In this document: positions 11,929 to 52,893 of the stretch, one piece after another
Layout of the letters: each line of letters opens with the position of its first letter
Numbering within the stretch: position 1 is the stretch's first letter
Assembly: GCF_026210795.1 (NCBI RefSeq)
Contig: NC_089449.1
Location: 3,100,001-3,164,000 of the forward strand
DNA from: Rhizophagus irregularis
Lineage: Eukaryota; Glomeromycota; Glomeromycetes; Glomerales; Glomeraceae
Direction of reading: 5' to 3'
DNA: 64,000 nt
Program-made: the position numbers and the translations under genes
The notes under the pieces: generated by a model
Told to the model about the DNA's origin: nothing
What the model saw: the letters and a program-made list of their open reading frames with translations, nothing else
The model's database searches: none

Positions 11929-11934
11929 TGGGAA

Positions 11935-17285: not shown

Positions 17286-18197
17286 AGTAGGACAAACTTG
17301 GGGGTTCTGGGACAGCGGCTATCACATAGGTCTAACCATAATTTAGTGTACCCCCAGACCACCTAGCCTTGATTTCTGATATGATAACATTATACCTGTT
17401 TTTCTATCCCCAGACCACATAACCTTGATTCCCGATATGTTATTACTTGATAGCTAAAAAAGAACCCCCAAACGTTGTAGATAAGATTAAAATCATATAT
17501 TCCTAAACATTATTACCACGCATGGATCTATTCCAGGGTATCATAATTTTATGCTATATCAGATTGCCTTTATAAGTGCTAAAGGTATGAAGGACACGAA
17601 GTATCTGTAATACTGATAGCACGATTCAGCAATCCATTGTGGCATACTATTTTTATGATACTCTAAAATGGATTCATTCGATAATTTAAGCCATTCATGC
17701 TCTAACCAAAAATTTTTAACAGGAAGGCAACTAGACATATTGTAAAGCTTTTCCTGCTATACGAAAAAATCTGGGACAGCGAAGTCTAACCAAAAATCTA
17801 ACCCAGGTCTAACCAAAAATGTATAGCAGGAAGGCAACTAGATATGTTTTAAAGCTTTTCCTCCTATACGAAAAAATCTGGGACAGCGAAGTCTAACCAA
17901 AAATCTGACCCAGGTCTAACCAAAAAATGTATAGCAGGAAGGTAACTAGATATATTGTAAAGTTTTCCTTGCAATACGAAAAAATCTGGGACAACAGGTC
18001 TAACCAAAAGTCTAACCAAAAATCTGTCTGAGGTCTAACCAAAAAATATACAGCAGGAAGACAACTAGACATATTGTAAAGCTTCCCCTGCAATACGAAA
18101 AAATCTGGGACAATAAAGTCTAACCAAAATTTAACCCTAATCATAAATTGCTCTGATTCTTTGACGAAGCCTATTTTCATACCGATTTTGATAGTAA
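17286..18197. repeat. Left terminal inverted repeat of inner element (912 bp)
   Basis: Matches 28201-29112 in inverted orientation over its full 912 bp. Four subterminal units are spaced about 107 to 117 bp apart, with GGAAGGCAACTAGA-type cores near 17722, 17828, 17938 and 18055. Such arrays are candidate integrase or terminal-protein binding sites. Confidence 0.9.
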
Positions 18198-18267
18198 TAA
18201 GATGGGAAACATTTTAGAATTTATTAATTGAAGAAAAAAATTTTTAGATTATTAGTACACAACCAGT

Positions 18268-21200
18268 ATGGCAACAAGCAATCGAACTTGTGATAGATGT
18301 GGAAAGACTTTTGCAACTCCACAAAAGCTTCGTGGGCATCAAAATAGAAAGTTTCTATGCAAGTCTACAGCTAACCCTCAGGATCCCACACCTGAGATTG
18401 TACAATTGCAACCACAACCGGAGCAATTCCAGGATCCCACACCTGAGATTGTACAATTGCAACCACAACCGGAGCAACTCCAGGATCCCACACCTGAAGT
18501 TATCCCAGCTCATACAGAGAAAACTCCTAACTTAACAATTGATGAACTAGCAAAATGGTTAGCAGGACCTGGTGATTACAATCAATATACTCCACGAAAA
18601 AGAAGAGTTCCACAAACAGATAATGAATGGTTTGCTTATATGCAAGGAGATTATAGAGGAAGATGGTGTGATATTCAATTTGTAAAAAGAGGTCATGATC
18701 CTGCACGTCCACATAAATCTCTAAAACATAAGACAGTATGGCAAGCTGATCTTAAACCAAATGTTAGAGATATACCATATTTTCCAAGTATAATAGCTGA
18801 TACCCGCCAGAAAATAACAGAAATTCTTGAGAGGGAACTTGAAGAAAAGGGGCAAATCAAATCAGCTATCACTATATTGGCTACATATACAGATAATAGT
18901 GGAACATATAAGCAAGTTTATCATAGAGGAGTCATGCGTGTACTTCTTTTAAAGAATGATATAGATGATCATTTAACAAAATCAGCAGTAGATATCACGG
19001 ATAAAATTGTCAAATTTATGAAAGGAGGGTCTGGTTGGAAAATTGTTAGTATAGATATATTAACTATTGAGACGTATACTTACCGCCGAGCAAAAGGAGG
19101 CTCATACATTCTTACACCTAAGGCACTTGCAAATAAGAAGTGCACTATCAATCCTGATAACAAAGATCTCATAGATCCAGACACAGGCTTGCCTTCTGAA
19201 AAATGTTTGCAAGGGGCTTTAGGTGCTTACTTTGCATATAAAGATGGTCATACACAAAAACTTGAGCGAATCTTTCGGGCAGAAAAATTTAAGCCATACT
19301 TGGAACAAGTCAATCTCAATGCAATTCCCATGCCCACTCCTGTTTGTCCACGCATATTTAGCAAGATTGAGGACCTCAATCCTGAGATCTCCATTAATGT
19401 ATGGGAATGGGAGGAGAAAACTGGTATTCCAAAACCTGTTATTGCAAGTAAGAATTACAACCGTCAACATATCATTCACCTTATGGCCCTTACAGATATT
19501 ACAAAATCAGATGAAGGAAAGTATGGTCAGAAGAATCACTTCCTTTGGATTAAGAATCCTGATGCTTTAATATACAAAGATACATCCCACAAGGGAAAGA
19601 AGCATCTTTGCAATCGGTGCTTCCAAAGCTTTCCATCGTCTAAATCTTTAACTAATCATCAGGAATGGTGTTTTGGATTAGGTGAGTCACCACAAAGAGT
19701 TGAGTTACCAGTTAAAGGTAAGAATGATTTTGAGGAGTTTAAGAATTTTAACCGAACAATGTATGCCCCATGTGTAATTATTGCAGACTTTGAGGCTGAT
19801 AACAGAAAGTGTAATGAAAACTATGGTGGAAATATGCATAAGATTATGGAGTAAAAGGCTAACAGCTTCTGCTATATGGTCCACTGGATTGAAACTGATG
19901 AGACATGGGGGCCATTCTTATACCGAGGACCAAATGCAACAGAAGAGTTTGTCAGCAGACTTGATAAAGAATTAAGAAGGATTAATGATGTTTTAGAAGT
20001 AAAAGTAGAACGTATTGTAACAGAGGAAGCTAAAAAGGAATTCACTAAAGCAGTTAGTTGTTGGATATGTAATGGGAATTTCAATCAGGGCGTGCAAGAC
20101 AAAAAAGTTTGGGATCACTGCCACATCACAGGTAAGTTTCGTGGGGCTGCTCATAATGCATGCAATCTTAAGCTTCAAATCGAAGCATGGAAGACTCCAA
20201 TTCCTGTAGTATTTCATAACTTCCGTGGCTATGACTCCCATTTAGTTTGTGAATCTGTTGGACGATCAATTGGAGCACATCAAATTAAAGTTATTGCAGA
20301 GACATTCGAACGTTACAAATCCATGAAAGTAGGGCAATTCAAGTACATTGATAGCATGCAGTTCATGGCTTCCAGTCTTGCAAACCTTGCAAAGAATTTA
20401 GGGACAGATAAACCCCTTACAAAGCGACACTTCAACAACTTCTCGTCTGAACATATTGACTTAATCACACGTAAGGGGGTTTATCCTTATGAATATATTG
20501 ATTCACATGATCGTTTCAAGGAGACAGAACTCCCATCTATTCATGACTTTCATAGTACTCTTGGAGGAAAGATCACTCAGGATAATTACAAACATGCACA
20601 AAAAGTTTGGAAGGAATTTGGCTGCAAAAACTTGGGCGAGTATCATGACCTTTACCTTAAGACTGATGTTCTTCTCCTAGCAGATGTCTGGACAAAATTT
20701 AGACAGACAGCGATGCATCATTATGGACTTGACCCAAGTCATTATGTCTCTGCTCCTGCACTTTCTTGGGATGGCATGCTTAAGATGACTGGAGTTAAAA
20801 TAGAGCTATTCACTGACATGACCATGCATGATTTTACTGAAAAGGCTAAACGTGGAGGAATAGCTATGGCAGGACACCGTTTCTTAAAAGCCAATAACCC
20901 TAAGATGGGTGACTCCTTTAATCCCTCTAAACCTACTACCTGGATTTCCTATGTAGATGCAAACAATCTGTATGGATGGGCTATGAGCCAGTACTTGCCT
21001 ATTGGTAACTACAGATGGGAAGCATCTCCAGAATATTTCAAACAGAATCTAGATAAGCAGAAGCAGATACTTAATGTAATTCTTAATACAAAACCAGATG
21101 CTGCCCGTGGTTACTTCCTAAATATCAAAGCGCACTTCCCCCTTAAAACTCATGATTATCTACAAGATTTACCTCCTGCAGTTGATAGTATAGCTGTAAA

Positions 21201-22386
21201 AAAGGATAGGTTAAGCCCATATATAACCAAACTTGTTGATAACTTAGATGGAGGGCGATTTCCTGAAACAGAGAAGTTAGTTCCACATCTTAGTAAACAT
21301 GAAGATTATGTTATACATTACCAAGAGCTCCAGTATTACATTAAGTTAGGCATGGTTGTAGATGAGATTACACAAGTCCTATCATTTGATCAAGATAACT
21401 GGTTAGCTCCTTATATTGCAAAAAATACAAATTTACGTCAACAATCCAAGAATTCATTTGAGAAAGACTTCTTTAAACTCATGAATAACTCAGTCTATGG
21501 CAAGACTATGGAGAATGTACGTAAGTATCAGGATGTCAAGCTTATGAGAATGATCAATGAAAATGATGAAAAGAAATTCCTTAAGAAAGTTCGCAAGCCC
21601 TCCTTCAAGTATGCTCGTCAACTTGGCAACACACTTGTAGGAGCACATATGGGTAAGGCTAGTGTTATTCTCAATAAACCTATCATTATCGGTGCATCTA
21701 TCCTTGGTCTCAGTAAACTCTTAATGTACCGCTTCTGGTATGGTTTTGTCAAAGAGAAGTATGGAAACAAAGTACGACTTGGATATATGGATACTGACTC
21801 CTTTATCTACCATGTCGAGACAGAAGATATTTACAAGGATATGGCAGAGCGTCCAGATCTCTTTGACCTTAATGATACCAAGACAATCGGGCTTTTCAAG
21901 GATGAGACTCCTGGAAATGTAATTACTGAATCCTACCACATCCGTGCAAAATCCTACCACTATGTCTTGGCAGACAAGTCTACAAAGTCCAAACATAAAG
22001 GAGTAAGCAAGAAGGGTATGAGTGATATGGCTAAGGACACATATTTCCCATCTTTAGGTGGAACTTTATTAGATGATACAGTAGAAAAAGATGAAATCTT
22101 CGATCCTATGACTCAAGTATATCGGGACTGTCTGTTTGAAAATGGTGTCTTCTATGCCAAGAATGTGGGAATGCGTACAAAAAATCATGTAATATCACTA
22201 ATCGAGTCAGAGAAGAAGGCATTATCCCCAATCGATACAAAACGCTGGATTTGGTCAGATGGTATATCCTCCTTACCATTCGGACACTGGTGTATTCAAG
22301 TATATAAGAAACTTCTTGAGCGTGGTACAAGTCATGAGGCAGCAGAAAAAATAGCTATAGGGACCAGATTACCAGAGAAATATTAG
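18268..22386 (+). pseudogene. Family B DNA polymerase (Polinton type) with zinc fingers, one premature stop
   Basis: 1373 codons in one frame, broken only by TAA at 19852-19854 where the outer copy has CAA. Order of parts: C2HC finger at residues 7-30 (CDRCGKTF), three Gln/Pro repeats (EIVQLQPQPEQ) at 40-75, a helical region, a second finger (HLCNRCFQSF) near 450, exonuclease motif I DFEAD near 507, an HNH-like VWDHCHITGKFRG near 610, exonuclease motif II NFRGYDSH, exonuclease III YLKTDVLLLAD, polymerase motif A VDANNLYGWAM near 896, motif B NNSVYGK, motif C YMDTDS near 1175. This layout is that of Polinton-like protein-primed polymerases, which copy the linear element from a terminal protein. 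The catalytic residues are all present; only the nonsense change disables it. ATG at 18268 lies 70 bp inside the terminal repeat. Confidence 0.92.
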
Positions 22387-22458
22387 AATGATATAGAATA
22401 GTTTAGTGATACTTAGGCATATATTAATAATAAATTATATTTTTTCCCGATAGTTAAA

Positions 22459-22728
22459 ATGGAAGACGATCCAATCTATGATATACATAGTGAAGAATAT
22501 ATCGATGACCTTATACATATCACAATTCAGAGAGGTCTCTTTAAAGATGTAGAGGATGCAATAAAAAGTATAAAGGCATTAGCTAAAATGGTCATAAGTT
22601 CTAAGACTAGTATTGATGCATTTATGAAATGCCCTGTACCAAACATTCCAAATGCCTTTTATGACTTAGTAGAGGCATTTTATTATTCAATACTAAGAGA
22701 AAGACAATCATTAGCACATGACATCTAA
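22459..22728 (+). CDS. Conserved 89-residue acidic protein, inner copy
   Basis: ATG at 22459, 89 residues, differing from the outer copy by one residue in the first part (HSEEY against HSKEY). It follows PolB by 72 bp on the same strand, so it may be expressed with it. No motif recognised; a small regulator or terminal protein is possible but nothing in the sequence shows this. Confidence 0.65.
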   Translation: MEDDPIYDIHSEEYIDDLIHITIQRGLFKDVEDAIKSIKALAKMVISSKTSIDAFMKCPVPNIPNAFYDLVEAFYYSILRERQSLAHDI

Positions 22729-22821
22729 CAGATTTCTGGGAGGTGTCATATGATAAGATATTCTATGGAATTCTTCAGAATTCTTTGGAATTCCAAATTT
22801 TTTTTTTCGTAATAAGAACTA

Positions 22822-23259
22822 ATGTCTTTCAACCAGGTATATACTGAGCTACTAGTTATGTTACCAGCTTCTGTAATACATGAGGCATGGATTCGTCTCA
22901 CAACAAGGAAGCGTAGTCCACTATCTGTGTCTGATGCCAGTGGAGTAAATTCCATGGTAGAGTTATTTTTGAAACATGAAGTAGAAAGATACCAGAAAAA
23001 ATTAGCATGTCAGAGACTAACTGTTAAACAGACATATATGCCAAGAAACAGAATGACACAAGACATGATTAGTGAAGAGGTTTCCATACTTCAGAAGCAC
23101 TTGCTTGAATATAATAAGGTTACTTTTGGCCGATTCATGCAGAACCTTACTAAAGAACATGAGAAATTGATCAAGACAAATCATCAGATACGACATGAAA
23201 TTGATACCATGAAGAAGCAAGTACGAGAAATAGAAAAAAAACTTGCTTCCATGTCGTAG
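22822..23259 (+). CDS. Basic coiled-coil protein of Polinton-like element
   Basis: ATG at 22822, 145 residues. The first 50 residues have a hydrophobic helical stretch (VYTELLVMLPASVIHEAWIR); the rest is a basic coiled coil (KHEVERYQKKLACQR, then HEKLIKTNHQIRHEIDTMKK). Ends 6 bp before the convergent zinc-finger frame. Intact here, frameshifted in the outer copy. No known family recognised; a structural or nucleic-acid-binding role is guesswork. Confidence 0.65.
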   Translation: MSFNQVYTELLVMLPASVIHEAWIRLTTRKRSPLSVSDASGVNSMVELFLKHEVERYQKKLACQRLTVKQTYMPRNRMTQDMISEEVSILQKHLLEYNKVTFGRFMQNLTKEHEKLIKTNHQIRHEIDTMKKQVREIEKKLASMS

Positions 23260-23265
23260 TTCCCA

Positions 23266-23517
23266 TTATTCATCAAGAAATAGACGAATGGGTACTGTTG
23301 CTTTACTCAAATTTTGTGTGGACTGCGCATGGGATTTTTTTACTGTGCATAGACTTTGCATGGACTTTGCATGGGAAATTTTAACTGCACATGGGCTTTG
23401 CATGGGCTTTGCATGGGACTTTTTTACTGCACATGGATTTTTTCGTAAAAAATGTTGTTTAAGATTAGAAGGATATGGGAATTCCTTCCCACAATGCTGA
23501 CAGGTACGATCAGCTAG
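23266..23517 (-). CDS. C2HC zinc-finger tail after protease, inner copy
   Basis: 84 codons, no start codon, conserved with 11677-11928. Encodes the CQHCGKEFPYPSNL finger and HAK-MQS repeats made by a GCAAAGCCCATG-type minisatellite. The protease frame reads TAT, three AAA codons, ACT, AGC, TGA across this junction. A 4-bp GCCA duplication and one more A than in the outer copy change the phase, so reaching this frame would need +1 or -2 here. Either this copy has lost the link or the finger is joined another way. Confidence 0.5.
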   Translation of the reverse strand, partial: LADRTCQHCGKEFPYPSNLKQHFLRKNPCAVKKSHAKPMQSPCAVKISHAKSMQSLCTVKKSHAQSTQNLSKATVPIRLFLDE

Positions 23518-24457
23518 TTTTTTTTTTATAGGCTGGCTGGCTATCTACTGCAAAAACATTACGTTGTGCCTTATGTACAGAGAGAGGAATTGAGACAACC
23601 TGTCCATTTACATTTGCTTTGAACTCACCCTTTACTACAGGTTCCCAACCTGCACGATACTGCCACTGTGTACCAAGTATTAGCAATGATTTGTCCTTAC
23701 CATTTCGATCCTTCTCGGTAGGTATAACAGAGAATTCGTCTGATATAGTGACTGTATTTGTACCTTCACCGATAGTTATGGGAATTTCATTGATAGTGCC
23801 AAGAGTTTTGGTTGATCCAGCTACACCATTAAGTGCATGTATATTCTTTCGATCTATTTTGAGACCTAGATGCTTAGCTACATTCTCAGAGATTACTGAA
23901 GAGTCAGACCCTGTATCGATCATAGCATAGGGTATGCATACATTTTTGATTTTACAGGAAATGGTCGCTACATCATTGGGATCATCTAACTGGAGAAAGT
24001 TGATTTCTAAGGGTCTTGGCCAGTATAGGTTTTTCTGCTGATAGGCACGTATTGCATGGTTCAGTGTTTTGTCTTCTTTCTGTTCTACTTCAGATGGTAC
24101 ATCTGCAGGAGGAGTTGGTAATAGTGGAGTTGCTGTATTTACAGCATGAGCTAGAGGAGATAAAATGTCTTGCATATTTGCTGAAAGAACATCCCAGAGT
24201 TTCTTTCTTTCACTAACTGGATAGTCACTAACAAAATGGTTTAAAAGCGGGTCTTTCAGATTCTCATATGCTTGATTGGTATAAGCATTAATCTGTAGGA
24301 GGATTTCTTTAGGACATTGTACTGCTAGTGAAGCAATTATAGACTTCAGTGCTGCATGAAAGACTTCATCAGTTTTCTTGAGAATAGGTTCTCTTTTAGA
24401 TTTGGAAGTACAGGATTTTTTCCCTTTGTTTTTTACCGAAATTCCACGTTGATAAGT
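23510..24457 (-). CDS. Retropepsin-like aspartic protease in -1 frame after gag, inner copy
   Basis: Open in the -1 frame from the A10 run (plus-strand T run 24457-24466) down to 23510. ATG at 24175 (MQDILSPL) is the first start. Catalytic DTGSDSSVIS and LILGTQW are present. About 315 codons: Lys-rich linker, helical segment, Pro-rich hinge, protease unit. The frame is the same as in the outer copy over the whole linker before ATG 24175, where no selection would act unless it is translated from upstream. This supports a Gag-Pro fusion made by -1 recoding. Confidence 0.8.
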   Translation of the reverse strand, partial: TYQRGISVKNKGKKSCTSKSKREPILKKTDEVFHAALKSIIASLAVQCPKEILLQINAYTNQAYENLKDPLLNHFVSDYPVSERKKLWDVLSANMQDILSPLAHAVNTATPLLPTPPADVPSEVEQKEDKTLNHAIRAYQQKNLYWPRPLEINFLQLDDPNDVATISCKIKNVCIPYAMIDTGSDSSVISENVAKHLGLKIDRKNIHALNGVAGSTKTLGTINEIPITIGEGTNTVTISDEFSVIPTEKDRNGKDKSLLILGTQWQYRAGWEPVVKGEFKANVNGQVVSIPLSVHKAQRNVFAVDSQPAYKKKTS

Positions 24458-26517
24458 TTTTTTTTTACACTAAAGCAATTCTGAGGTTCATCCTCCTCCT
24501 CTTCTTCTTCAGTTAACTCTTCCTCAGTTTCTTCATCAGTTTCCTCATCACTTTCAGATTCTTCATAGTCAACTATGTGAGTATTGTTAACTTTCTTAGT
24601 ACGTCTACTCCGTGAACACTTGTTTTTGGAATGACCTGTTCTACCACAGTTTGAGCAATGACGTTTAGGAGAAGATTTGGTTGTCTTTGTCACCTTTTTA
24701 ACCTGACCAGTTCCGAAGTGATCTTTTCTTAGATGTTGTGTTTGTCCACCTAACTTTCTGGTAAGATCACTCTCAATGAAAGTATGTATTGCTACAGGAT
24801 TTGTTATGTCACCAGTATAGCCAAGACGTACTGCTATATCTGCAAGCTTTTCTAATGCAGTTCTATTCTGTGGTTGTTCTACTATAGTGGTTGGATTTTT
24901 TCGCCCTCCACTTTCATACCATTTATTACGTAACTCATTAAAGAAAGCATCAAGATCAGCAGGAGCAGCAATTCTAACTCTCATTTCTAAAACATCAGGC
25001 AAATGATTATATAGATAAGGTAAAATTTCAGCATATACTTGTCCTTGTGCTAATGATCGAATCCTTTTTGCATATGTATCTGGTGTATCTATAGGAGAAA
25101 ATGATTCATTCATGAGTGCTATTATAGCACCTTGATTTGTTCCAACCATCACATCTCTATATTTTCCTTGCAGCCAGTTTAGAAACTCTGGTTCTGTATT
25201 AATAGCAGCATTGGCATTATATGGATTATTTGCTGGAACAGGAATAAATCTACCAGACATTTTATTTTTCATAACACTACACCTCATAGCAGCATTAAAA
25301 ACAGCAACAGCTAGTGGACGAGCCATTTCATTGACAGCTCTAAGCTTTTGATAATAAGAGTCTGGCGGCTCTTGTCCATCATAAAATGGTAACTGTGCAA
25401 GACCTGGTGATATAGTATGCATGACATCTTGTATTGTAGCCATGTTTGGAGGATTGTTTTGTAACGCTAATATTTGTTGTTGTAAATTTAAAATATTTTG
25501 GGCCTGTGCTTGTACTTGGGTCTGTGAAATCCTATATTGTCTTTGCCAGTTTTGTGCCTGACGTATACAACCTGCATGCCTTCTTCTCCAACGTTCTGTA
25601 TCAGCATTATAGCGTAACATCAGCCTGTGTGCATTCCTTCTATGCTCAGCTATCTGATTCTGTTGGTTTGCTATCTGATTCTGTTGATTTACCAGCTGAT
25701 TCTGCTGGTTTGCCAGTTGTGCATCTTTACGTCTATTCAGAAAACGTATACCTAGATTGGCTATTTGTATTCCTGCAATACGTGCTTGATTCTGTTGTGC
25801 AACAGTTTCCCAGTGTCTACGAGCATTTGTCTCATATGTAAAATCATCACGTACTCTTATTAAGTCTTGATTAAGAGCATTTGTACGATCTAAAGATTCT
25901 CCAAGTAATGTCTGCAATCCTTCTATCTGATTTAGTTGGTCTACACCAATTTCTTGCATTAGAGCAGCTTGACGAATAATTTCATCAAGACTTTGAGTGG
26001 TAGCATTAAAGACATCATCTATGTCTTGTGGAATTGGAATCCTATTCCGATCAAAAAATAGTCGAATCTCAGACACACAATCTGCAACTGCCCGTCGGCG
26101 GTCTAGTATTCTTAGAATAGGATTGAATAATTCATTATCTTCATCCATTTCTATCTTTCCTTTACATAAAGATAATTCTTGAATGCGTTTTTTGAGTTTA
26201 TCTACTGTGTCTTCAAGCTGAATAATACGTTCATCCTGGGCAACAAGTGCCTCTTCCTTTAACTCTAAGTGATCTCGATACTTTCCAAGTTCAACTAAAG
26301 TGGACTGACACTCTGCCTTTAACTGATCGATCTCATCCTCACGTGAAACAAGATTTTTTTCAAGATAGAAGATATATCGTTCACATGCCTCTATCTCCTT
26401 TGTGAGTTTACGGATTTTCTCCTTATTGGAAATATTATTTGTTTCCTCTAATATCAGCTCTTTACGTAAAGCAAAGTTGCTATTTAGCAGATCAAGATAT
26501 GCCTGTTCAACTCCCAT
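24433..26517 (-). CDS. Gag-like nucleocapsid protein, inner copy (intact)
   Basis: 694 residues from ATG 26517. Residues 1-125 form a charged coiled coil (KIRKLTKEIEACERYIFYLEK). A central helical region with Gln-rich repeats (NQQNQ near 270-295) precedes a Gag-like region (LPFYDGQEPPDSYYQKLRAV and on), then a CX2CX4HX4C knuckle (CSNCGRTGHSKNKC near 635) and an acidic Glu tail. Proteins with this layout coat RNA or DNA and assemble shells in retroelements. Here it sits beside integrase and a DNA polymerase, with no reverse transcriptase in the element. ATG 26517 lies 19 bp inside the start of the divergent integrase gene; ATG 26148 is an alternative that would leave about 350 bp for a shared promoter. 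Confidence 0.85.
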   Translation of the reverse strand: MGVEQAYLDLLNSNFALRKELILEETNNISNKEKIRKLTKEIEACERYIFYLEKNLVSREDEIDQLKAECQSTLVELGKYRDHLELKEEALVAQDERIIQLEDTVDKLKKRIQELSLCKGKIEMDEDNELFNPILRILDRRRAVADCVSEIRLFFDRNRIPIPQDIDDVFNATTQSLDEIIRQAALMQEIGVDQLNQIEGLQTLLGESLDRTNALNQDLIRVRDDFTYETNARRHWETVAQQNQARIAGIQIANLGIRFLNRRKDAQLANQQNQLVNQQNQIANQQNQIAEHRRNAHRLMLRYNADTERWRRRHAGCIRQAQNWQRQYRISQTQVQAQAQNILNLQQQILALQNNPPNMATIQDVMHTISPGLAQLPFYDGQEPPDSYYQKLRAVNEMARPLAVAVFNAAMRCSVMKNKMSGRFIPVPANNPYNANAAINTEPEFLNWLQGKYRDVMVGTNQGAIIALMNESFSPIDTPDTYAKRIRSLAQGQVYAEILPYLYNHLPDVLEMRVRIAAPADLDAFFNELRNKWYESGGRKNPTTIVEQPQNRTALEKLADIAVRLGYTGDITNPVAIHTFIESDLTRKLGGQTQHLRKDHFGTGQVKKVTKTTKSSPKRHCSNCGRTGHSKNKCSRSRRTKKVNNTHIVDYEESESDEETDEETEEELTEEEEEEDEPQNCFSVKKKLINVEFR

Positions 26518-27608
26518 TGATTCCTATTATTCCAATAGATTCTGATGAAGCACGAAATGTAGAGGTGACTTCGACTTTATGCAGAATATTTTACCAACCA
26601 TCTGGATATCAGAGGACTGCCAAAAAATTGTATCAGACATCACAAAATGCTGGATATGATTTCACCTTGGATGAAGTGGAGGATTGGCTTGAAAGACAGG
26701 CAGTACATCAAATCCACAAACCTCGTCCCCGATTTATCCCTCGTGTAAGTTTTAGTTCTATACAAGTTCCCAATGAAGTTCATCAAGCTGACATTTTGTA
26801 TATGCCATATGACAAGGTTGGACATGTGACTTATCTTTTCTGTCTCAATATAGTTGATATAGCATCAAGGTATAAAGAAAGTGTCCCTATAGGTTCAACC
26901 AGTGTTAAAGATCGACAGGGAATCCTAACTTCTCATACTATTGCGCGGGCTTTTGAAAAGGTATATGATGATACAACATGTCCGCTCACTTGGCCAAAAT
27001 TATTGATTACAGATAGGGGTTCAGAGTTTAAAGGTGAGTGTGAAAAGCTGATGACTTCCCATGGTGTAAAGATTCAGAAGGCCAAGTCTAAGCGTACTGT
27101 TGGCATTGTGGAGCGATATAACCGTACCTTGGTTGAAAAACTATTTCCCTCTCAAGATGCATCTGACTTACTAACTTTAGGTAAAACAAGATCTCGAGTC
27201 TGGGTAAAAAACTTACCTATTGCTGTAGAAAGTATAAATAACTCAGTGACCCAACAACTTGGTATATCTCCTGCTGTAGCTATAAAAAAATCACGAGTGT
27301 CTTCCAGATCTTCTTATCCTCGTGATGGACCTGTTGGGATTGAAGAAGAGAAACTACCACCTGATATAAGTGTAAGGTACTTACTTGAACCAAATGATCT
27401 GGAAGGTGGAAGACGTCGAGCAGGAGATATGAATTGGTCACCTAAGATTTATCATATCCATATGTCTTTAACACAGAAAAATCAACCAGTTTTGTACTGG
27501 CTTATTGATGATGATGGTAAAGAATCAGAGAGATCCTTTGTGAGGGAAGAACTTTTGGTTATACCAGATGATACAGAACTTCCACCACAATGGGTACTTA
27601 TGAATTAA
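26499..27608 (+). CDS. Polinton-type (retroviral-like) integrase, intact
   Basis: 369 residues from ATG 26499 (MPVQLPLIPI); the longer frame from 26439 starts at TTG. Catalytic core: D98 (HQADILYM), D172 (ITDRGSEFKG) and E205 (GIVERYNRTL), spacing D-x32-E, close to Polinton integrases, in which the usual HPQTNG loop of LTR elements is replaced (here KAKSKRTV). The N-terminal part has the helix pattern GYQRTAKKLYQ through WLERQAVHQIHKP seen before the core in this family; the C-terminus has a beta-rich segment. It joins element ends to target DNA, giving here a 5-bp duplication. Open in this copy, frameshifted in the outer one. Confidence 0.9.
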   Translation: MPVQLPLIPIIPIDSDEARNVEVTSTLCRIFYQPSGYQRTAKKLYQTSQNAGYDFTLDEVEDWLERQAVHQIHKPRPRFIPRVSFSSIQVPNEVHQADILYMPYDKVGHVTYLFCLNIVDIASRYKESVPIGSTSVKDRQGILTSHTIARAFEKVYDDTTCPLTWPKLLITDRGSEFKGECEKLMTSHGVKIQKAKSKRTVGIVERYNRTLVEKLFPSQDASDLLTLGKTRSRVWVKNLPIAVESINNSVTQQLGISPAVAIKKSRVSSRSSYPRDGPVGIEEEKLPPDISVRYLLEPNDLEGGRRRAGDMNWSPKIYHIHMSLTQKNQPVLYWLIDDDGKESERSFVREELLVIPDDTELPPQWVLMN

Positions 27609-27972
27609 GATAGTCTTCTACCTCATCATCTGCTTGGGAGTCTGTAAGGAAGTAGTCTTTTGCCAATTCGTAGTATAACCTGTATAGCTTATTAATAGCA
27701 GACAAAAGTTTTGGTTCTCTGCTATACCAGGTCTTATAATTTTCCAAGATTTGCTGATATTTTGTCTCATTAGGTAGAATAGATTGTGCTGTTTCAAGAA
27801 CAAAATTTTCTGGTTCTTCTGCTTGACGCAATTTGATTATCCTTTATTTGTAACATAACATGAATTTACCATCCTTTGGTTTCTTGTAAAGGATGCCTGC
27901 TTTAATTACTGCAATTAGAGCTGACTCAATTTCACGGTATGTTGGCTTAGCTGGTATAGCTTGGGTAGACAT
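27598..27972 (-). pseudogene. Conserved 125-residue protein, inner copy, with premature stop
   Basis: ATG at 27972. An in-frame TAA near 27844 replaces CAA of the outer copy (YKQR), leaving 77 codons open downstream from ATG 27831. Otherwise nearly identical to 7225-7602. Overlaps the 3' end of the integrase gene by 11 bp in convergent orientation. Confidence 0.65.
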
Positions 27973-28024
27973 TTTTATATCTTGTAAAGTTTTTTTTAAT
28001 TTAACTTATTTATACTTAATAAAA

Positions 28025-28261
28025 ATGATTGGAGAATATACTTGTGAATATTTACATAACACAGGAAAGCCTTGTGGTCGTCCTTGTGTGAGGCCAGAAG
28101 GTTGTCGCATTCATTGGAAGACAAAATCACGCTTTCCTTGTGCTGTATGTGGTAAACCTACAGGTTCATCTAGTGGTCGATGTCAATCTCATATTGGAAG
28201 TTACTATCAAAATCGGTATGAAAATAGGCTTCGACAAAGAATCAGAGCAATTTATGATTAG
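28025..28261 (+). CDS. Small Cys/His-rich protein, inner copy
   Basis: 78 residues from ATG 28025 (MIGEYTCEYL), ending YD at 28261. The TTG-started longer frame from 27893 overlaps the divergent 125-residue gene and is not supported. Eight Cys and several His in CGRPC, GCRIHW, CAVCGK and GRCQSHI suggest a zinc-binding unit. Its last 20 codons lie inside the terminal repeat (28201-29112), so the same sequence is also present, inverted, at the PolB end. Function unknown. Confidence 0.7.
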   Translation: MIGEYTCEYLHNTGKPCGRPCVRPEGCRIHWKTKSRFPCAVCGKPTGSSSGRCQSHIGSYYQNRYENRLRQRIRAIYD

Positions 28262-29112
28262 GGTTAAATTTTGGTTAGACTTTATTGTCCCAGATTTTTT
28301 CGTATTGCAGGGGAAGCTTTACAATATGTCTAGTTGTCTTCCTGCTGTATATTTTTTGGTTAGACCTCAGACAGATTTTTGGTTAGACTTTTGGTTAGAC
28401 CTGTTGTCCCAGATTTTTTCGTATTGCAAGGAAAACTTTACAATATATCTAGTTACCTTCCTGCTATACATTTTTTGGTTAGACCTGGGTCAGATTTTTG
28501 GTTAGACTTCGCTGTCCCAGATTTTTTCGTATAGGAGGAAAAGCTTTAAAACATATCTAGTTGCCTTCCTGCTATACATTTTTGGTTAGACCTGGGTTAG
28601 ATTTTTGGTTAGACTTCGCTGTCCCAGATTTTTTCGTATAGCAGGAAAAGCTTTACAATATGTCTAGTTGCCTTCCTGTTAAAAATTTTTGGTTAGAGCA
28701 TGAATGGCTTAAATTATCGAATGAATCCATTTTAGAGTATCATAAAAATAGTATGCCACAATGGATTGCTGAATCGTGCTATCAGTATTACAGATACTTC
28801 GTGTCCTTCATACCTTTAGCACTTATAAAGGCAATCTGATATAGCATAAAATTATGATACCCTGGAATAGATCCATGCGTGGTAATAATGTTTAGGAATA
28901 TATGATTTTAATCTTATCTACAACGTTTGGGGGTTCTTTTTTAGCTATCAAGTAATAACATATCGGGAATCAAGGTTATGTGGTCTGGGGATAGAAAAAC
29001 AGGTATAATGTTATCATATCAGAAATCAAGGCTAGGTGGTCTGGGGGTACACTAAATTATGGTTAGACCTATGTGATAGCCGCTGTCCCAGAACCCCCAA
29101 GTTTGTCCTACT
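28201..29112. repeat. Right terminal inverted repeat of inner element (912 bp)
   Basis: Complement of 17286-18197, with the same four subterminal units. The last bases GTTTGTCCTACT mirror the left end; CCTGG at 29113-29117 follows. Confidence 0.9.
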
Positions 29113-29117
29113 CCTGG

Positions 29118-29741
29118 GTTGGATTTTTGGTTAGACTTCGCTGTCCCAGATTTTTTCGTATAGGAGGAAAAGCTTTAAAACATATCTAGTTGCCTTCCTG
29201 CTATACATTTTTGGTTAGACCTGGGTTAGATTTTTGGTTAGACTTCACTGTCCCAGATTTTTTCGTATAGCAGGAAAAGCTTTACAATATGTCTAGTTGC
29301 CTTCCTGCTAAAAATTTTTGGTTAGAGCATGAATGGCTTAAATCATCGAATGAATCCATTTTAGAGTATCATAAAAATAGTATGCCACAATGGATTGCTG
29401 AATCGTGCCATCGGTATTACAGACACTTCGTGTCCTTCATACCTTTGGCACTTATAAAGGCAATCTGATATAGCATAAAATTATGATACCCTGGAATGGA
29501 TCCATGCGTGGTAATAATGCCTAGAAATATATGATTTTAATCTTATCTACAATGCTTGGGGGTTCTTTTTTAGCTATCAAGTAATAACATATCGGGAATC
29601 AAGGTTAGGTGGTCTGGGGATAGAAAAACAGGTATAGTGTTATCATATCAGAAATCAAGGCTAGGTGGTCTGGGGGTACACTAAATTATGGTTAGACCTA
29701 TGTGATAGCTGCTGTCCCAGAACCCCCAAGTTTGCCCTACT
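29118..29741. repeat. Right terminal inverted repeat of outer element, outer-side fragment
   Basis: Remaining 624 bp of the repeat split at 17285. Continues CCTGGGTTGGATTTTTGG exactly where the left fragment stopped and ends GTTTGCCCTACT before TGTAC. Confidence 0.9.
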
Positions 29742-29746
29742 TGTAC

Positions 29747-30042
29747 AGATAGATTGATTTTACATTTATCATCTGATTGGTGGGAAGCAAAATTTGAAGT
29801 GAAATCTTGGGCATCAAAACATTAGTCGTTGAAAAAGTTTCAGCACAATGCATCGCTTGAAGAAACTTGATATGCTAGTAAAAAGAAAGGAAGAAAATTT
29901 GTAAAAAAAAAAAGTCAAAATTAATTGGTATTAAAAAAGACGGCAACCCCTGATTATGTAATAAATTTGGCTACACAAACATGATCATCGCGTCATGATG
30001 TCATCTGATAAATGTTTACAGTACAGTATTTGTTTATTAGAT
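29747..30042. other. Right flank of Polinton-like insertion, no gene
   Basis: A short open stretch (TDRLILHLSSDWWEAKFEVK, then TAG) continues the weak frame seen left of the insertion and then decays. I do not recognise it. The rest is AT-rich. Confidence 0.35.
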
Positions 30043-34000: not shown

Positions 34001-35101
34001 TGTAAACGGTCGAATATCAAGCATGAAAAGATGATAAAATTCAACTACCAAACGTAATTGCCAAATGTTAAGAACGAACAAATTAATCGTGGATTGGCGT
34101 AGATGGATAAATAATTAGCCGAAAAGGATAAACATTTAGGAAGAGTAATGATCTACATGATGTAATATTTATTGAATGATTGACAAGGAACCAATAGGAT
34201 AAATAGAGTCGATCAATTGCGGCTTAGCAATCTTTAACAATAAGAACGATAAGAAAGAATAATTATAAGCCACAAAAGATAGATTATAAGCAAAACACAT
34301 AAAGCGAATTAAAAGAACATATAAAATAATGTCAGAAAGATTAAAGAACACAAAATAATGTAAAAGATAATATAAAAAGATAGTATAAAGATGGAACGTA
34401 AAAGATAATATATTAAAAAGAACATATATAAAAAGATAGCATATTAAAAGATAGCATATTAAAAAGATAGCGTATTTAAAATATAGATAGTATATTAGAA
34501 AGATAGTTCAAAGATAATATGTAAAAAGAACATAAAAGATAGTATATAGATAGAATAGAAAGTAGCATAAAATTTGTATAAAAAGAGAACGGAATTCAAA
34601 ATAATTCCACAGTTCTCATCCACAGAACTCAATAAAAATATAAGTTTTATTTTTTAATTATTTGTTAGTAAAGTTTAACGTTAATTAAAGGTAATAGGTT
34701 CGCCCTAAACTTTAATTAATGTTTGCTTAATTAATTTTAATTGAATAAATGGAAATTTTAAGATGAATTAAATATACACTTTTGGAAAGTAATAATTCGT
34801 AGCGAGAGCTATCGAAGTTTGAAATTAAAGGTAAAAGTGGATATAATTTGGGGAAAATTTAGAGAAGTTAATTTTATTTTATATCGTTCGACGTTTTATA
34901 TTACTAACGCTATTTATGTCGTGAATCAAGAATGTTGTTGTATGTTGTTCGTTGATTATGTCGTTTGATAATTAAGTTGTTGATTATTTGTTTGTTCGTT
35001 TAATTGTTTGTTCGTTCGTTCATTCGTTCGTTCGACCATGGGAATGCCCGTTCGATGTGGCAACTCTGTAAATTGATGACAGAGGGAATTGGGGGATCTC
35101 A
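34001..35101 (+). repeat. 5' long terminal repeat
   Basis: 1101 bp. Contains A-rich direct repeats of AAAAGATAGCATATTA type at about 34370-34500 and a GTTCGTTCGTTCATTCG microsatellite near 35010. The short minus-strand ORF at 34169-34351 is repeated in the other LTR and is not considered a gene. Confidence 0.95.
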
Positions 35102-44209: not shown

Positions 44210-45310
44210 TGTAAACGGTCGAATATCAAGCATGAAAAGATGATAAAATTCAACTACCAAACGTAATTGCCAAATGTTAAGAACGAACAAATTAATCGTG
44301 GATTGGCGTAGATGGATAAATAATTAGCCGAAAAGGATAAACATTTAGGAAGAGTAATGATCTACATGATGTAATATTTATTGAATGATTGACAAGGAAC
44401 CAATAGGATAAATAGAGTCGATCAATTGCGGCTTAGCAATCTTTAACAATAAGAACGATAAGAAAGAATAATTATAAGCCACAAAAGATAGATTATAAGC
44501 AAAACACATAAAGCGAATTAAAAGAACATATAAAATAATGTCAGAAAGATTAAAGAACACAAAATAATGTAAAAGATAATATAAAAAGATAGTATAAAGA
44601 TGGAACGTAAAAGATAATATATTAAAAAGAACATATATAAAAAGATAGCATATTAAAAGATAGCATATTAAAAAGATAGCGTATTTAAAATATAGATAGT
44701 ATATTAGAAAGATAGTTCAAAGATAATATGTAAAAAGAACATAAAAGATAGTATATAGATAGAATAGAAAGTAGCATAAAATTTGTATAAAAAGAGAACG
44801 GAATTCAAAATAATTCCACAGTTCTCATCCACAGAACTCAATAAAAATATAAGTTTTATTTTTTAATTATTTGTTAGTAAAGTTTAACGTTAATTAAAGG
44901 TAATAGGTTCGCCCTAAACTTTAATTAATGTTTGCTTAATTAATTTTAATTGAATAAATGGAAATTTTAAGATGAATTAAATATACACTTTTGGAAAGTA
45001 ATAATTCGTAGCGAGAGCTATCGAAGTTTGAAATTAAAGGTAAAAGTGGATATAATTTGGGGAAAATTTAGAGAAGTTAATTTTATTTTATATCGTTCGA
45101 CGTTTTATATTACTAACGCTATTTATGTCGTGAACCAAGAATGTTGTTGTATGTTGTTCGTTGATTATGTCGTTTGATAATTAAGTTGTTGATTATTTGT
45201 TTGTTCGTTTAATTGTTCGTTCGTTCGTTCATTCGTTCGTTCGACCATGGGAATGCCCGTTCGATGTGGCAACTCTGTAAATTGATGACAGAGGGAATTG
45301 GGGGATCTCA
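44210..45310 (+). repeat. 3' long terminal repeat
   Basis: 1101 bp, same length as the 5' LTR. Two differences noticed by eye: GTGAACCAAG against GTGAATCAAG, and GTTCGTTCG against GTTTGTTCG. Both are C/T changes. Confidence 0.95.
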
Positions 45311-48312: not shown

Positions 48313-48479
48313 AGGGCAGTGACAGATATTACCTAATATTCTAGGGGGAGGGGGTAATTGAAAATCTTAGGTTACATATATACTATATAAGGAAATTACA
48401 TATATAATATATCTTACCTGGGGGAGGGGGGGTAAGCTCTTATAATAAACTGATATTAGGTAATATCTGTCATTGCCCT
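48313..48479. repeat. Short inverted-repeat element
   Basis: 27-bp arms, AGGGCAGTGACAGATATTAC at the left and the complement with one mismatch at the right, around two G-rich runs. Probably a MITE. No clear target duplication. Confidence 0.6.
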
Positions 48480-48882
48480 AACTGTTTAAAGGATTTTTTT
48501 GATAAATTTAATATGCAGTAAATTTAAATTTATGTAAGATTTTCAACCAAAGTAATTATTATAGCGGAGTGACAAATGATCAACAAAATTGTGATAAAGT
48601 AAAAATGAATGATAATCATTTCATTGGTGCTTAATAATTACCTAAGATGAAATGATTAATCAGTTACTGCGATTTTGTAATAATTGATCTACATTCCAGT
48701 TTGTTTGTCATATATGCAATGATGCAATGCTTGTACTTGTGATCAATGCTTTTGCACATAATGTATTTTGCATAAATATTATTACCATATTTATTCATAC
48801 TAATAAAGGCGCTCAATAATAAAAAAAAAAAAGAAAAGATATTTATTTATCCTTTTCAATTAGGGAGAGTTTTGAAATAGCA

Positions 48883-51800
48883 ATGGGCCAATGTATTGGT
48901 AAAGGTATAGCATATAACACGAATAATAATATTAATTAGAATTATTCAAAATTATTAAAACAAATTTGCAATATAATAAAACTAGTTTTGTGTGATATCA
49001 AAAAACCTAAAGGTAAATATAATATACAAAACAAATTGAAATATTAAGATTTTTATTTATTAAAAAATTATTATAAATAATCAAATATAATTAAACCAAA
49101 TTTGCAATATAACAAAACTAGTTTCCAGTAATATAGAAGAATTTGAAGAATGTGGTACTGGAGAATTTGAGGGAAGTGGCACTGAAGAATTTGAAAGAAG
49201 TAATATTGAGGAATTTGAAGGAAGTGACACCAAGGAATCTAAAGGTATATCAAATAAGTTGAAGTATTAAGTTTTTATTTATAAACAACTCAAATACTAC
49301 AAATATAATTTAAACTAACTATATTATATAAAAATTATTAAATATTTAGCTCGTAAGTTAATATAATGAATTACTCATTATTTTTATTGTATTCCATATA
49401 ACTAAATAATTTATTCAATAATTAATAATCTGTAGTTGGTAAGTTATCAGTTATTTAAATCTTTAGTCTTTACTTTATTTATTCTACATAACATTCAAAT
49501 AACTAAATTCTTTGTTTATATAACTATTTAATAATTAATTATATTACAGATGGTAAGTTACAATATATATATTATATTTATTTGTTTAATATTTTATGTA
49601 ATATTGTACTTAATTCAACTAATTAGATTCTTAATTCAAATAACTAGATTGTAAGTAATATATATAATTTACAGTAACTACTTTTATATTATCTTTATAT
49701 TTAACTAATTAATAATTAATAATACTACAGGGTGTAAGTTATATGATATCTATATTTGTATTATTTATATAATTTAAACTATCTAATTTCTTCATTTAAA
49801 AAATTATTTTGTAATTTATTTTAGTTGGTAAGTTATAAATTATTTATTTAATTCTATTATTACTTATTGTTATAATATTTACATATAATTTAAACTATCT
49901 AATTTCTTTATTTAAATAGATTGTAAGTTATAAGTTATTTATTTAATTCTATTATTACTTATTGTTATAATATTTACATATAATTTAAACTATCTAATTT
50001 CTTTATTTAAAAAATTATTAAATAATATAGGGAGTAAGTTATTTATTTAATTCTATTATTACTTATTGTTATAATATTTACATATAATTTAAACTATCTA
50101 ATTTCTTTATTTAAAAAATTATTTCGTAGATGGTAAGTTATTTATTTAATTCTATTATTACTTATTGTTATAATATTTACATATAATTTAAACTATCTAA
50201 TTTCTTTATTTAAAAAATTATTTCGTAGATCGTAAGTTATTTATTTAATTCTATTATTACTTATTGTTATAATATTTACATATAATTTAAACTATCTAAT
50301 TTCTTTATTTAAATAGGTTGTAAGTTATAAGTTATTTATTTAATTCTATTATTACTTATTGTTATAATATTTACATATAATTTAAACTATCTAATTTCTT
50401 TATTTAAAAAATTATTAAATAATATAGGGAGTAAGTTATTTATTTAATTCTATTATTACTTATTGTTATAATATTTACATATAATTTAAACTATCTAATT
50501 TCTTTATTTAAAAAATTATTAAATAATATAGGGAGTAAGTTATTTATTTAATTCTATTATTACTTATTGTTATAATATTTACATATAATTTAAACTATCT
50601 AATTTCTTTATTTAAAAAATTATTAAATAATATAGGGAGTAAGTTATTTATTTAATTCTATTATTACTTATTGTTATAATATTTACATATAATTTAAACT
50701 ATCTAATTTCTTTATTTAAAAAATTATTAAATAATATAGGGAGTAAGTTATTTATTTAATTCTATTATTACTTATTGTTATAATATTTACATATAATTTA
50801 AACTATCTAATTTCTTTATTTATTTAATAGATTGTAAGTCATAAGTTATTTATTTAATTCTATTATTACTTATTGTTATAATATTTACATATAATTTAAA
50901 CTATCTAATTTCTTTATTTAAATAGATTGTAAGTTATAAGTTATTTATTTAATTCTATTATTACTTATTGTTATAATATTTACATATAATTTAAACTATC
51001 TAATTTCTTTATTTATTTAATAGATTGTAAGTCATAAGTTATTTATTTAATTCTATTATTACTTATTGTTATAATATTTACATATAATTTAAACCATCTA
51101 ATTTCTTTATTTAAAAATTATTTCGTAGATGGTAAGTTATTTATTTAATTCTATTATTACTTATTGTTATAATATTTACATATAATTTAAACTATCTAAT
51201 TTCTTTATTTAAAAATTATTTCGTAGATGGTAAGTTATTTATTTAATTCTATTATTACTTATTGTTATAATATTTACATATAATTTAAACTATCTAATTT
51301 CTTTATTTAAATAGATTGTAAGTTATAAGTTATTTATTTAATTCTATTATTACTTATTGTTATAATATTTACATATAATTTAAATTAACTAATTTCTTTG
51401 TTATAAAATTATTTACAATCTAGCTTGTAAGTATCTCTATCATTATATATTTTATATAATATTTATTTGTTAACTGAATTCTTTCATCTGAAAAATATCT
51501 GTTACTTTAGTTGGTAAGTTGTAAATTATAGGTTATTATATGTATTTATCCAAAAATTAAGACTTATATTATATTACATTAAATTCCTATTTAAATTTTA
51601 GAGTAAGTAATAATTTGTTTTCTGTAAATTATTATACAATCTATAATATCTATAATATAATTTTTTTAATTATTTAAATTTATAGATTTGGGAAAAGTGG
51701 AAATACAATTATAGATGATTTTATTCTTAAAAAAAAATTAAGATGGATTCCTTATAACAAATTTAAAAATGTTGAATATCTTAATGAAGGAGGATTTGGT

Positions 51801-52893
51801 ACTATATATAAAGCTACTTGGTTAAATAATGATAATGTTAAAAAAGTAATTCTTAAATGTCACAAGAATTTAAATGAAAATTTAAATGAATTTTTAAAAG
51901 AAGTATGATAGTATATTATTTTCTATTTTTAATTTAAATTAAAATTTATTTATATTAATAAATTATTATTATTTTTTATAGTGGGAATATCATACAAGTG
52001 TTTTAGATTCATACGAAATTATATTTATGTATGGATTTACAGCAGATCCAAATATTTCAAAATATATGGTAGTAATGGATTATGCAAATAAAGGTAATTT
52101 AAGAGAAAATTTAACAAGAATAGTCAAAAAGAAATGGAATCAAAAATTACTTATGTTGTGCGAAATTATTTCTGGACTTAGTGAGATACATGGAAAAAAT
52201 CTTATTCATTGTGATTTTCATGATGGTAATATTTTAAATCATAATGAGGGTAAAATTTATATTAGTGATTTAGGATTATGTCAACCTGTAAAATCGTTTT
52301 TGTATGGGGATGATATTTGTGGTGTAATGCCATTTATGGCTCCTGAAGTTTTAAGAGGCAAATCTTATACGCCAGCTAGTGATATATATAGTTTTTCTAT
52401 GATTATGTGGGAACTTACATCCGGGGTACCACCATTTAATAATAGAGCACATGATATTCAACTTTGTTTGAGTATTTGTAAAGGTGAACGTCCTGAAATT
52501 ATTGAAAATACTCCACAATGTTATGTAGATTTAATGAAAGAATGTTGGAATGAAGATTCATCAAAAAGACCATCTTCTGGAGAAGTATTACAAATTATTG
52601 ATAAATGGATTTTCCATCCTGATAATGATGAAATTAATGAAGAATTAAAAAGCAATATTATGGAATTTATAAATGCACCAATTGGGCGGTATAACAATCT
52701 TGTTACTACATCACATCCACAAGCATGTTATACAAGTCGCTTATTTGGTTTTACTAGCAAAAAATTGAATGAAATTCTTGAAAATGAAGATTCACAAGCT
52801 AGTGTAAAAACAAATGAAATGCTAGTAAGTGAAGATTTGGATGGTTATATAATTAAGGATTTAGGGACATTGGGTATGTACTATGATATATAA
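48883..52893 (+). CDS. TKL-type protein kinase gene with microexon array (29-exon model)
   Basis: Exons: 48883-48898, 48986-49012, 49122-49244, then 23 exons of 3 nt and one of 1 nt (49350-51602), then 51686-51902 and 51982-52893. They total 1365 nt, 455 codons with no internal stop. The start MGQC is followed by an acidic exon of 8-residue repeats (EEFEGSGT type). The array adds 24 residues rich in Asp, Trp, Arg and Tyr. The kinase domain has LNEGGFGTIYKA, the ATP-binding Lys in VILKCHK, the catalytic loop LIHCDFHDGNIL, ISDLGL for DFG and MAPEVLRG. Expanded kinase families of this type are known from Rhizophagus. If the array is skipped, exon 3 joined to 51686 runs into TAG within ten codons, so the array or an equivalent 3n+1 nt is needed. 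A shorter protein from a later ATG is the alternative. Confidence 0.8.
49245..51685 (+). repeat. Tandem array of intron-like units with 3-nt exons
   Basis: 24 units, 83 to 114 bp each. Each starts GTAAGT, has CTATCTAATTTC (branch-point-like CTAAT) and ends in AG, three bases, GTAAGT. The three-base exons start at 49350 CTC, 49436 TTG, 49550 ATG, 49648 ATT, 49731 GGT, 49825 TTG, 49920 ATT, 50031 GGA, 50130 ATG, 50229 ATC, 50317 GTT, 50428, 50532, 50636 and 50740 GGA (exact 104-bp period), 50831, 50926 and 51024 ATT, 51129 and 51227 ATG, 51315 ATT, 51424 CTT, 51511 TTG, plus single A at 51602. Units at the edges are diverged and central units nearly identical, as expected for growth from the middle. 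Confidence 0.85.

Follow-up and report, generated by a model that had tools for sequence, protein, structure and literature searches.

Schistosome micro-exon genes (MEGs) build secreted proteins from exons of 6-36 nt. At the ratchet points of recursive splicing a 3' splice site is followed at once by a 5' splice site, the intron being removed stepwise with 0 nt left behind, and in TAL-effector repeats and the WD40 repeats of the fungal HET-D/E proteins, homogenised repeats carry a few hypervariable, function-setting residues. The aphid bicycle genes are, in the excerpts of their description used here (PMC9168663), a fast-evolving family with ca. 17 exons on average (>100 in a megacycle gene), nearly all internal exons starting in phase 2, that encodes putative plant gall effectors; the excerpted part of a plant study (PMC8831610) gives 1-nt microexons missing from annotation for APC11 and VPS55, the latter with a conserved GTRAGT donor. 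Here we have analysed a kinase gene of Rhizophagus irregularis, located in a window of 64 kb (C21:3100001-3164000, the whole stretch of DNA under study), in which the segment preceding the kinase domain is apparently encoded by a long series of exons of one codon each. The genome searched comprised 146.7 Mb in 32 contigs; L numbers denote the paralogous loci compared and P numbers public protein models. We consider it highly probable that a large family of R. irregularis PK_Tyr_Ser-Thr kinases carries such arrays, their one-codon exons being joined in order in phase 1 and translated into one residue per unit. The array would lie between a short N-terminal part and the kinase domain, with introns of ca. 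96 nt, and a final exon of 1 nt would shift phase 1 to the phase 2 in which the kinase is read. The ends of the predicted linker would be common to many members (a W near the start and xFE just before FGKSGN) and its middle hypervariable.

A motif scan of the window bore out what an earlier note had claimed, namely 24 GTAAGT units of which 23 are spaced by 3 nt and the last by 1 nt. The 24 hexamers stand at 49353-51603, with an AG 3 nt upstream in 23 and 1 nt upstream in the last, whereas of the 13 GTAAGT found outside the array only one has an AG at -3; chance was therefore rejected as the source of this spacing. The array also scores as a tandem repeat (period 104, 16 copies, 92% match). It was delimited by donor/acceptor scan, gene model and parser, and the micro-exons come from the gene model:

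49245..51685, + strand: array of 25 introns of ca. 80-111 nt, between them 23 exons of 3 nt and one of 1 nt
49350..49352, +: micro-exon 1, CTC
49436..49438, +: micro-exon 2, TTG
49550..49552, +: micro-exon 3, ATG
49648..49650, +: micro-exon 4, ATT
49731..49733, +: micro-exon 5, GGT, closing the head CTC-TTG-ATG-ATT-GGT
49825..49827, +: micro-exon 6, TTG
49920..49922, +: micro-exon 7, ATT
50031..50033, +: micro-exon 8, GGA
50130..50132, +: micro-exon 9, ATG
50229..50231, +: micro-exon 10, ATC
50317..50319, +: micro-exon 11, GTT
50428..50430, +: micro-exon 12, GGA
50532..50534, +: micro-exon 13, GGA
50636..50638, +: micro-exon 14, GGA
50740..50742, +: micro-exon 15, GGA
50831..50833, +: micro-exon 16, ATT
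50926..50928, +: micro-exon 17, ATT
51024..51026, +: micro-exon 18, ATT
51129..51131, +: micro-exon 19, ATG
51227..51229, +: micro-exon 20, ATG
51315..51317, +: micro-exon 21, ATT
51424..51426, +: micro-exon 22, CTT, tail (CTT at the equivalent place in 21/38 arrays)
51511..51513, +: micro-exon 23, TTG, tail (TTG at the equivalent place in 29/33 arrays scored)
51602..51602, +: micro-exon 24, 1 nt (A), predicted to restore the kinase frame (terminal exon A in 35/38 arrays)

The head is common, whole or in part, to many arrays, and the phase-1 reading of the window linker predicts the peptide ...ESKALDDWFDWNDR. We have compared 38 loci, i.e., the window, 19 picked by array DNA and 18 picked by kinase similarity alone, the latter fetched as 4-kb pieces in two batches (10 and 8). 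L021 and L022 are overlapping stretches of one locus, of which L022 (the 5' part) was left out, as were L001-L008, which are small sub-fragments. A phase-1 codon takes its first base from the end of one exon and its other two from the start of the following exon, ca. 100 nt away, and unless neighbours are joined and translated nothing links the bases of adjacent exons. Over all 38 loci, phase-1 junctions produced a stop in 1/990 cases against 27.6 expected, a value as low as this being reached in none of 20000 circular, order-preserving shifts, and 22 of the 23 informative arrays had no phase-1 stop. In the discovery set, adjacent exons gave 1/868 stops versus 21.7 in shuffled order (0/1000 shuffles as low), while exons at lags 3-6 gave 19, 11, 18 and 19 stops versus 17.8, 16.1, 14.8 and 13.3 expected. 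Eight held-out loci, fetched after the discovery test, repeated the result (0/143 versus 4.5; 4/2000 shuffles as low), with lags 2-5 at expectation. Since stops are avoided between adjacent exons while lags 2-6 show little or no avoidance, neighbouring exons are very probably joined in order and translated in phase 1. We regard this as strong, if indirect, evidence of constitutive, in-order joining and of the phase-1 reading. The same reading had been advanced earlier for the window alone and now agrees with 38 arrays, the held-out replication and the frames at both array ends in the paralogs. Phase 2 was ruled out for the array by its 136 stops in 990 junctions.

The rest of the gene is consistent with this reading. 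The open frame through the 24 micro-exons that had been claimed could be rebuilt: the model runs from 48883 to 52893 on the + strand with GT...AG at every junction and no internal stop, giving a coding sequence of 1365 nt including the stop (454 aa), divisible by three. Ending exon 1 at 48904 gives, by arithmetic, 1371 nt and 456 aa; the version ending at 48898 is equally in frame, and the longer exon of 22 nt (MGQCIGK) seems the more likely because the paralog protein P0011 and the paralogous exons read so. The features outside the array are:

48401..48882, +: conserved 5' flank, candidate promoter or 5' untranslated region (blastn of 48401-48900)
48883..48904, +: exon 1, 22 nt, ATGGGCCAATGTATTGGTAAAG, ending in phase 1; an alternative donor after 48898 gives 16 nt with the phase unchanged (paralogs, P0011)
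48986..49012, +: exon 2, 27 nt (gene model)
49122..49244, +: exon 3, 123 nt, acidic repeats EEFEGS..., ending in phase 1 (homologous exon in L013, L024, L026, L028)
51686..51902, +: exon with FGKSGN... and the start of the kinase domain, entered in phase 2 (gene model, Pfam, paralogs)
51982..52893, +: last exon, with the remaining kinase domain, C-terminus and stop (gene model, Pfam)

As had been stated, splicing exon 3 straight to the kinase exon runs into a stop on the spliced model; passing through the 1-nt exon only, with the other micro-exons omitted, stays in frame. Exon 3 could also be spliced in frame to the AG at 51713-51714; this join was rejected as it drops FGKSGN, whose exon start keeps its phase in 37/38 loci. 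The kinase domain (residues 107-355) matches PF07714 with 143.3 bits (gathering cut-off 23.1) and PF00069 with 130 bits (cut-off 31.7), and by eye the protein contains the K of VILKC, HCDFHDGN, DLG and APE, which we take to be kinase motifs. The N-terminus MGQCIGK, also judged by eye, presumably resembles a myristoylation/palmitoylation signal more than a signal peptide. Scans of the window for tRNAs and Rfam families gave no match. The region 48401-48900 has blastn matches, 73-90% identical, in 18 of the 37 other loci (only 75-82 bp long in L016 and L017); the 5' flank was matched in 18 of the 19 loci fetched long and in none of the 18 divergent 4-kb pieces.

The window array is, to judge from these comparisons, one case of a genome-wide system in R. 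irregularis kinase genes. Array DNA matches 492 places in its own genome, and a hand count among the matches listed gives at least 36 array loci, the window included, all 36 being followed on the same strand, within ca. 10 kb, by a kinase exon. There are at least 151 matches to the kinase exon (150 of 3829 candidates were scored) and at least 40 copies of the array tail (40 of 192 candidates scored). Of the 18 paralogs picked by kinase similarity, 17 show 12-34 one-codon exons each in their 4-kb pieces, and arrays are present even in paralogs whose kinase exon is just 54-60% identical. The exception, L046, has an array that appears short or decayed, since it holds five such exons only, with mostly weak donors; a short way upstream of this array there is a second, distant kinase piece (oriented 2371-3027), which shares 28% identity with the last kinase exon of the window. 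Arrays are predicted to hold ca. 9 to 48 one-codon exons per gene, with one locus probably having more, and ca. 150 genes with a median of 30 units would extrapolate to ca. 4,000 one-codon exons in the genome, if the rate of 17/18 holds. The longest array locus is interrupted by ca. 3.3 kb free of GTAAGT (L021, ca. 903-4233 in reverse-complement orientation, continuing the L022 array), possibly an insertion; no open frame of at least 100 aa was found in L021 1001-4200.

Exon length and frame were followed with a parser that allowed exons of 0-12 nt with no length preference but favoured a GTAAGT donor. Over the 38 loci it returned 1182 exons, of which 1087 were of 3 nt, 38 of 1 nt and 57 of other lengths (six of them zero). 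Some odd lengths are parser choices (in L021 and L023, for instance, a 10-nt call spans a TCG exon together with its donor), and units AGA, AGC or AGT in L009, L016 and L023 are 3-nt exons rather than 1-nt ones. Zero-length units of the ratchet type, with AG directly before GTAAGT and the frame kept, occur at oriented position 7016 of L017 and at 4863 of L020, and the more distant arrays L033, L034 and L044 have a small number of two-codon exons of 6 nt (ATTCTT, GGCGTT and CATCTT among them). At the 3' end, the kinase exon is entered one base before a TTT/TAT codon in 36/38 loci; L044 is entered four bases before it, which is the same phase, so that phase 2 holds in 37/38, and L045 is a misfit. 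The need for a 1-nt exon to reach the kinase frame, proposed for the window, is supported by the paralogs. At the 5' end, the 18 loci with an alignable 5' flank all have the ATG exon, and it ends in phase 1 in each, its end having been placed by eye; in ten of these 18 the parser goes straight on to the ATT unit. For L015, joining a 19-nt exon to nine 3-nt exons and the 1-nt exon yields a complete frame of 398 aa, MDQRIEDWWIVDRSFEFGKSGN..., of which the public model P0121 covers 60%.

The introns of the array are 61-124 nt long (median 96) and look U2-type, with GT-AG ends and both donor and branch consensus. The donor of the 3-nt exons is GTAAGT in 973/1087, a count to be read with the parser's preference in mind; the donor of the intron inside the kinase, recognised in 33/38 loci by a GTAAGT-permissive pattern, is GTATGA in 28/33 and GTAAGT in none. 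CTAAY occurs in 896/1109 array introns (253 in shuffled sequence), its median distance to the 3' end being 34 nt. The earlier note slightly overstated its case in giving every unit of the window a CTAAT-like branch site: of the 24 introns directly downstream of a micro-exon, 19 have CTAAT, placed 21-42 nt ahead of the 3' splice site. Variant donors (GCAAGT, GTATGT) mark sub-families of units amplified within single arrays (L032, L041, L042, L030), the 3-nt spacing being kept. As a 3-nt exon is too small for both splice-site complexes at once, U1 and U2AF could not occupy it together, and the introns would have to leave one at a time in 5'-to-3' order. Every removal would append a codon and restore a 5' splice site, the intron half of which, GTAAGT, would pair perfectly with U1. 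This mechanism, which we infer, is established splicing chemistry applied to the arrays.

The codons of the array appear far more variable than the introns around them. In 413 inter-locus pairs of units with no more than two mismatches in 80 nt of flanking intron (ungapped), exon positions 1, 2 and 3 differ in 23.2, 10.9 and 41.4%, versus 1.0% in the flanks; bootstrapping by locus gives 95% confidence intervals of 15-31, 5-18 and 33-50%, and 22 held-out 3-nt windows in the introns, treated in the same way, differ by 3.7% on average and 11.8% at most. The step is sharp, with 0-4% mismatch within six bases on either side and 12-39% in the exon (600 pairs). As an extreme example, 41 units in nine loci have identical 80-nt flanks around GGA, CGC, CGT, GGG, CAT, TGT, GGT or CGA. 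With phase-1 reading, the fast-changing exon positions 3 and 1 become positions 1 and 2 of the codon, and among single-base differences between exons 295 are nonsynonymous and 7 synonymous (each counted in both contexts), when 20% synonymous would be expected at random. Read in phase 1, the linkers have a high content of R, D, F, W, N, L and Y. Of 1087 units, 512 have their nearest flank in a different locus and 338 in their own, with ties for 237; given those 512, units appear to be shared between arrays of different loci. These patterns suggest to us that the introns form a homogenised scaffold while diversifying selection acts on the residues encoded, with a mutational origin as a less likely reading. 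Duplication, deletion and exchange of units between arrays would change the linker by whole residues without frameshift and would keep the introns alike, while diversifying selection separates the codons. The intron gain by tandem duplication that had been suggested for the window is clear there as recent block duplication, but it would explain only part of the picture, because arrays also occur in distant paralogs, units look shared across loci, and codons outpace introns.

The best protein matches come from R. irregularis, with DAOM 197198 as the source of many. Among the public models, that of the window gene, P0010 (289 aa), starts only in the last exon and covers 63% of the predicted protein. 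In P0003, P0015, P0033, P0097 and P0116 (5/120 models inspected) there are runs rich in I/L/G/M/V that fit a phase-0 reading of an array; P0066, P0072 (locus placed at C15:966732) and P0105 have short stretches at the place of the linker, matching the compared arrays by one 4-mer at most, that might be phase-1 readings. Arrays probably exist in R. diaphanus as well, because P0033 and P0066 come from that species. In the excerpted text of the 2018 R. irregularis genome paper (PMC6123716), the protein tyrosine kinase motif PF07714 is the most frequent one in its survey and annotation was done with TopHat/AUGUSTUS, a procedure that we expect to miss 3-nt exons.

A number of observations speak against one-codon exons joined in phase 1, and they have to be weighed together with the alternatives. 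The window linker was seen in none of the 120 N-termini inspected among 131 public models. The L029 array holds one phase-1 stop, the sole exception among the arrays, and real units of 2 or 4 nt exist in L009, L011, L020 and L026, genes that may be damaged or may skip such units. Just 21 of the 38 parsed arrays consist of multiples of three plus the terminal 1-nt exon, although some of the failures are parser-made. Exon length changes between similar units number 35 versus 47 predicted from the intron indel rate, and as they are hardly rarer, indel avoidance alone is a weak argument. In the discovery set, stops at lag 2 are mildly depleted (13 versus 19.8; 26/1000 shuffles), so that some skipping is possible. 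The kinase exon is itself weakly constrained (median ratio of nonsynonymous to synonymous rates, dN/dS, of 0.77 over 171 pairs of 19 loci, L046 excluded, with no stops). And if exon position 3 is counted as synonymous, as phase 0 would have it, the codons would look conserved, but synonymous sites would then be ca. 10 times faster than introns. Two alternatives do away with the phase-1 linker. The array could be a minisatellite with splice-like motifs, the kinase transcript starting downstream or skipping it whole, which is what the earlier note had named as its refutation; the units of the window do form a tandem repeat, P0010 begins in the last exon and other models begin at MSKFGK or later. 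We hold this to be very improbable. It leaves unexplained the phase-1 stop avoidance between neighbours 100 nt apart, for which joining and translation are needed, and against it stand also the constant 3 nt from AG to donor while introns vary from 61 to 124 nt, and the conservation of the 5' flank in 18/19 long loci together with an ATG exon ending in phase 1 in those 18. Alternatively, the array could be spliced but have phase 0 as its frame; the last exon would then be AGTAA (5 nt, donor GTAATA) instead of the 1-nt exon, and the linker would be hydrophobic (I/L/G/M). The sequence AGTAAGT at the last site permits both readings and the runs in P0003, P0015, P0033, P0097 and P0116 end in LSK before FGK or SGK, but phase-0 stops are not avoided (TGA in four of the 1087 exons, i.e., in 4 of the 15 TGN exons) whereas phase-1 stops are. 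We rejected this reading, the least probable of all, because exon 1 closes in phase 1 at all 18 loci in which it could be identified, because TGA exons turn up in L018 and L028, whose arrays are intact in other respects, and in L043, and because it puts a stop at the last junction of L034 (by reading).

The other two alternatives accept splicing and translation. The exons could be optional, one gene giving many linker lengths, as symmetric 3-nt exons can be skipped with the frame always preserved, and the lag-2 depletion of the discovery set points the same way. Held-out lag-2 junctions are, however, at expectation (4 versus 3.9 stops) and lags 3-6 are not clearly depleted, so skipped joins do not seem to be kept open by selection, and we think optional exons improbable. 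The variability could also be neutral, owing to a mutation hot spot or to conversion that homogenises introns only. Introns clearly share ancestry between loci (the 512 and 237 of 1087 units mentioned above), mutation bias at exon-intron borders may play a part, and the weak constraint on the kinase fits too. This is unlikely, though a more serious contender than the preceding three, as it is codon positions 1 and 2, where changes alter the amino acid, that carry the excess, synonymous changes make up 2% versus the 20% expected, and the step at the exon borders is sharp. Constitutive joining in phase 1 with selected residues appears to us the better reading.

Two further features of the window concern other parts of it. 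There is an inverted duplication of 10.3 kb (6946-17285 and 17910-28251, 98.2% identical, arms ca. 0.6 kb apart), beside which pieces of 0.6-0.9 kb are repeated at 5849-6761 and 28201-29747, and a direct duplication of 1.1 kb (34001-35101 and 44210-45310, 99.8% identical).

Set against the systems described at the outset, the kinase arrays share with schistosome MEGs the chains of tiny in-frame exons in variable proteins (a chain in a single phase is found here too, 23 exons in phase 1 in the window and arrays at 38 loci), but the exons are of 3 nt and the protein is a kinase. As far as the excerpts on the bicycle genes go (PMC9168663), both are fast-evolving families with many consecutive micro-exons nearly all in one phase; unlike bicycle genes, the kinase arrays have one codon per exon, phase 1 throughout rather than internal exons starting in phase 2, a position before a kinase, and introns more alike than exons. 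The 1-nt exon, absent from annotation like those of plant APC11 and VPS55, differs from these isolated cases, in the part of the study at hand (PMC8831610), in ending a chain of dozens of 3-nt exons with a sequence that is family-wide. Abutting 3' and 5' splice sites would force stepwise removal of introns as at ratchet points, but each step would leave 3 nt of coding sequence (1087/1182 exons are of 3 nt and six of zero). Finally, there is a homogenised repeat with hypervariable positions as in TAL effectors and HET-D/E WD40 domains; there the repeat is protein, whereas in the kinase arrays the repeat is the intron and the variable codon alone is coding. The arrays could be filed, by their parts, as an extreme variant of micro-exon genes. 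The earlier note knew of no described gene with so many serial one-codon exons. This agrees with our literature search, among whose listed matches (most subscription papers and bioRxiv lay outside it) neither serial 3-nt exons nor micro-exons of Rhizophagus kinases were described; PMC11333574 and PMC12308204 yielded nothing relevant to the question. We rate the parts (micro-exons, a 1-nt exon, stepwise splicing) as known, and the chain of one-codon exons with hypervariable codons as new as far as that search reaches.

If this interpretation is correct, the arrays would be an extreme of eukaryotic gene structure, a protein segment encoded one codon per exon, dozens in series, in a whole family of a model mycorrhizal symbiont. 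They would challenge ideas on minimum exon size, because splicing would need a strict stepwise order and high accuracy, and they suggest that standard annotation and RNA-seq mapping can overlook a hypervariable segment entirely. As to function, we infer that the likeliest role of the variable linker is recognition or docking; an MGQC N-terminus, acidic repeats, a hypervariable linker and a kinase would fit a membrane-tethered kinase with such a segment. More tentatively, and as something we hold possible rather than probable, the arrays may be a codon-by-codon diversity system in which cassettes of a movable intron and a hypervariable codon are swapped by recombination in the introns, residue by residue, across >100 kinase genes, while selection keeps the R/D/F/W/N/Y-rich linkers different. 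If diversifying selection is real, this would be an unusual route to protein diversity, with introns conserved and codons variable, and a diversity system of that kind would amount to a genetically encoded recognition or docking code, e.g., for fungal self/non-self or host signals.

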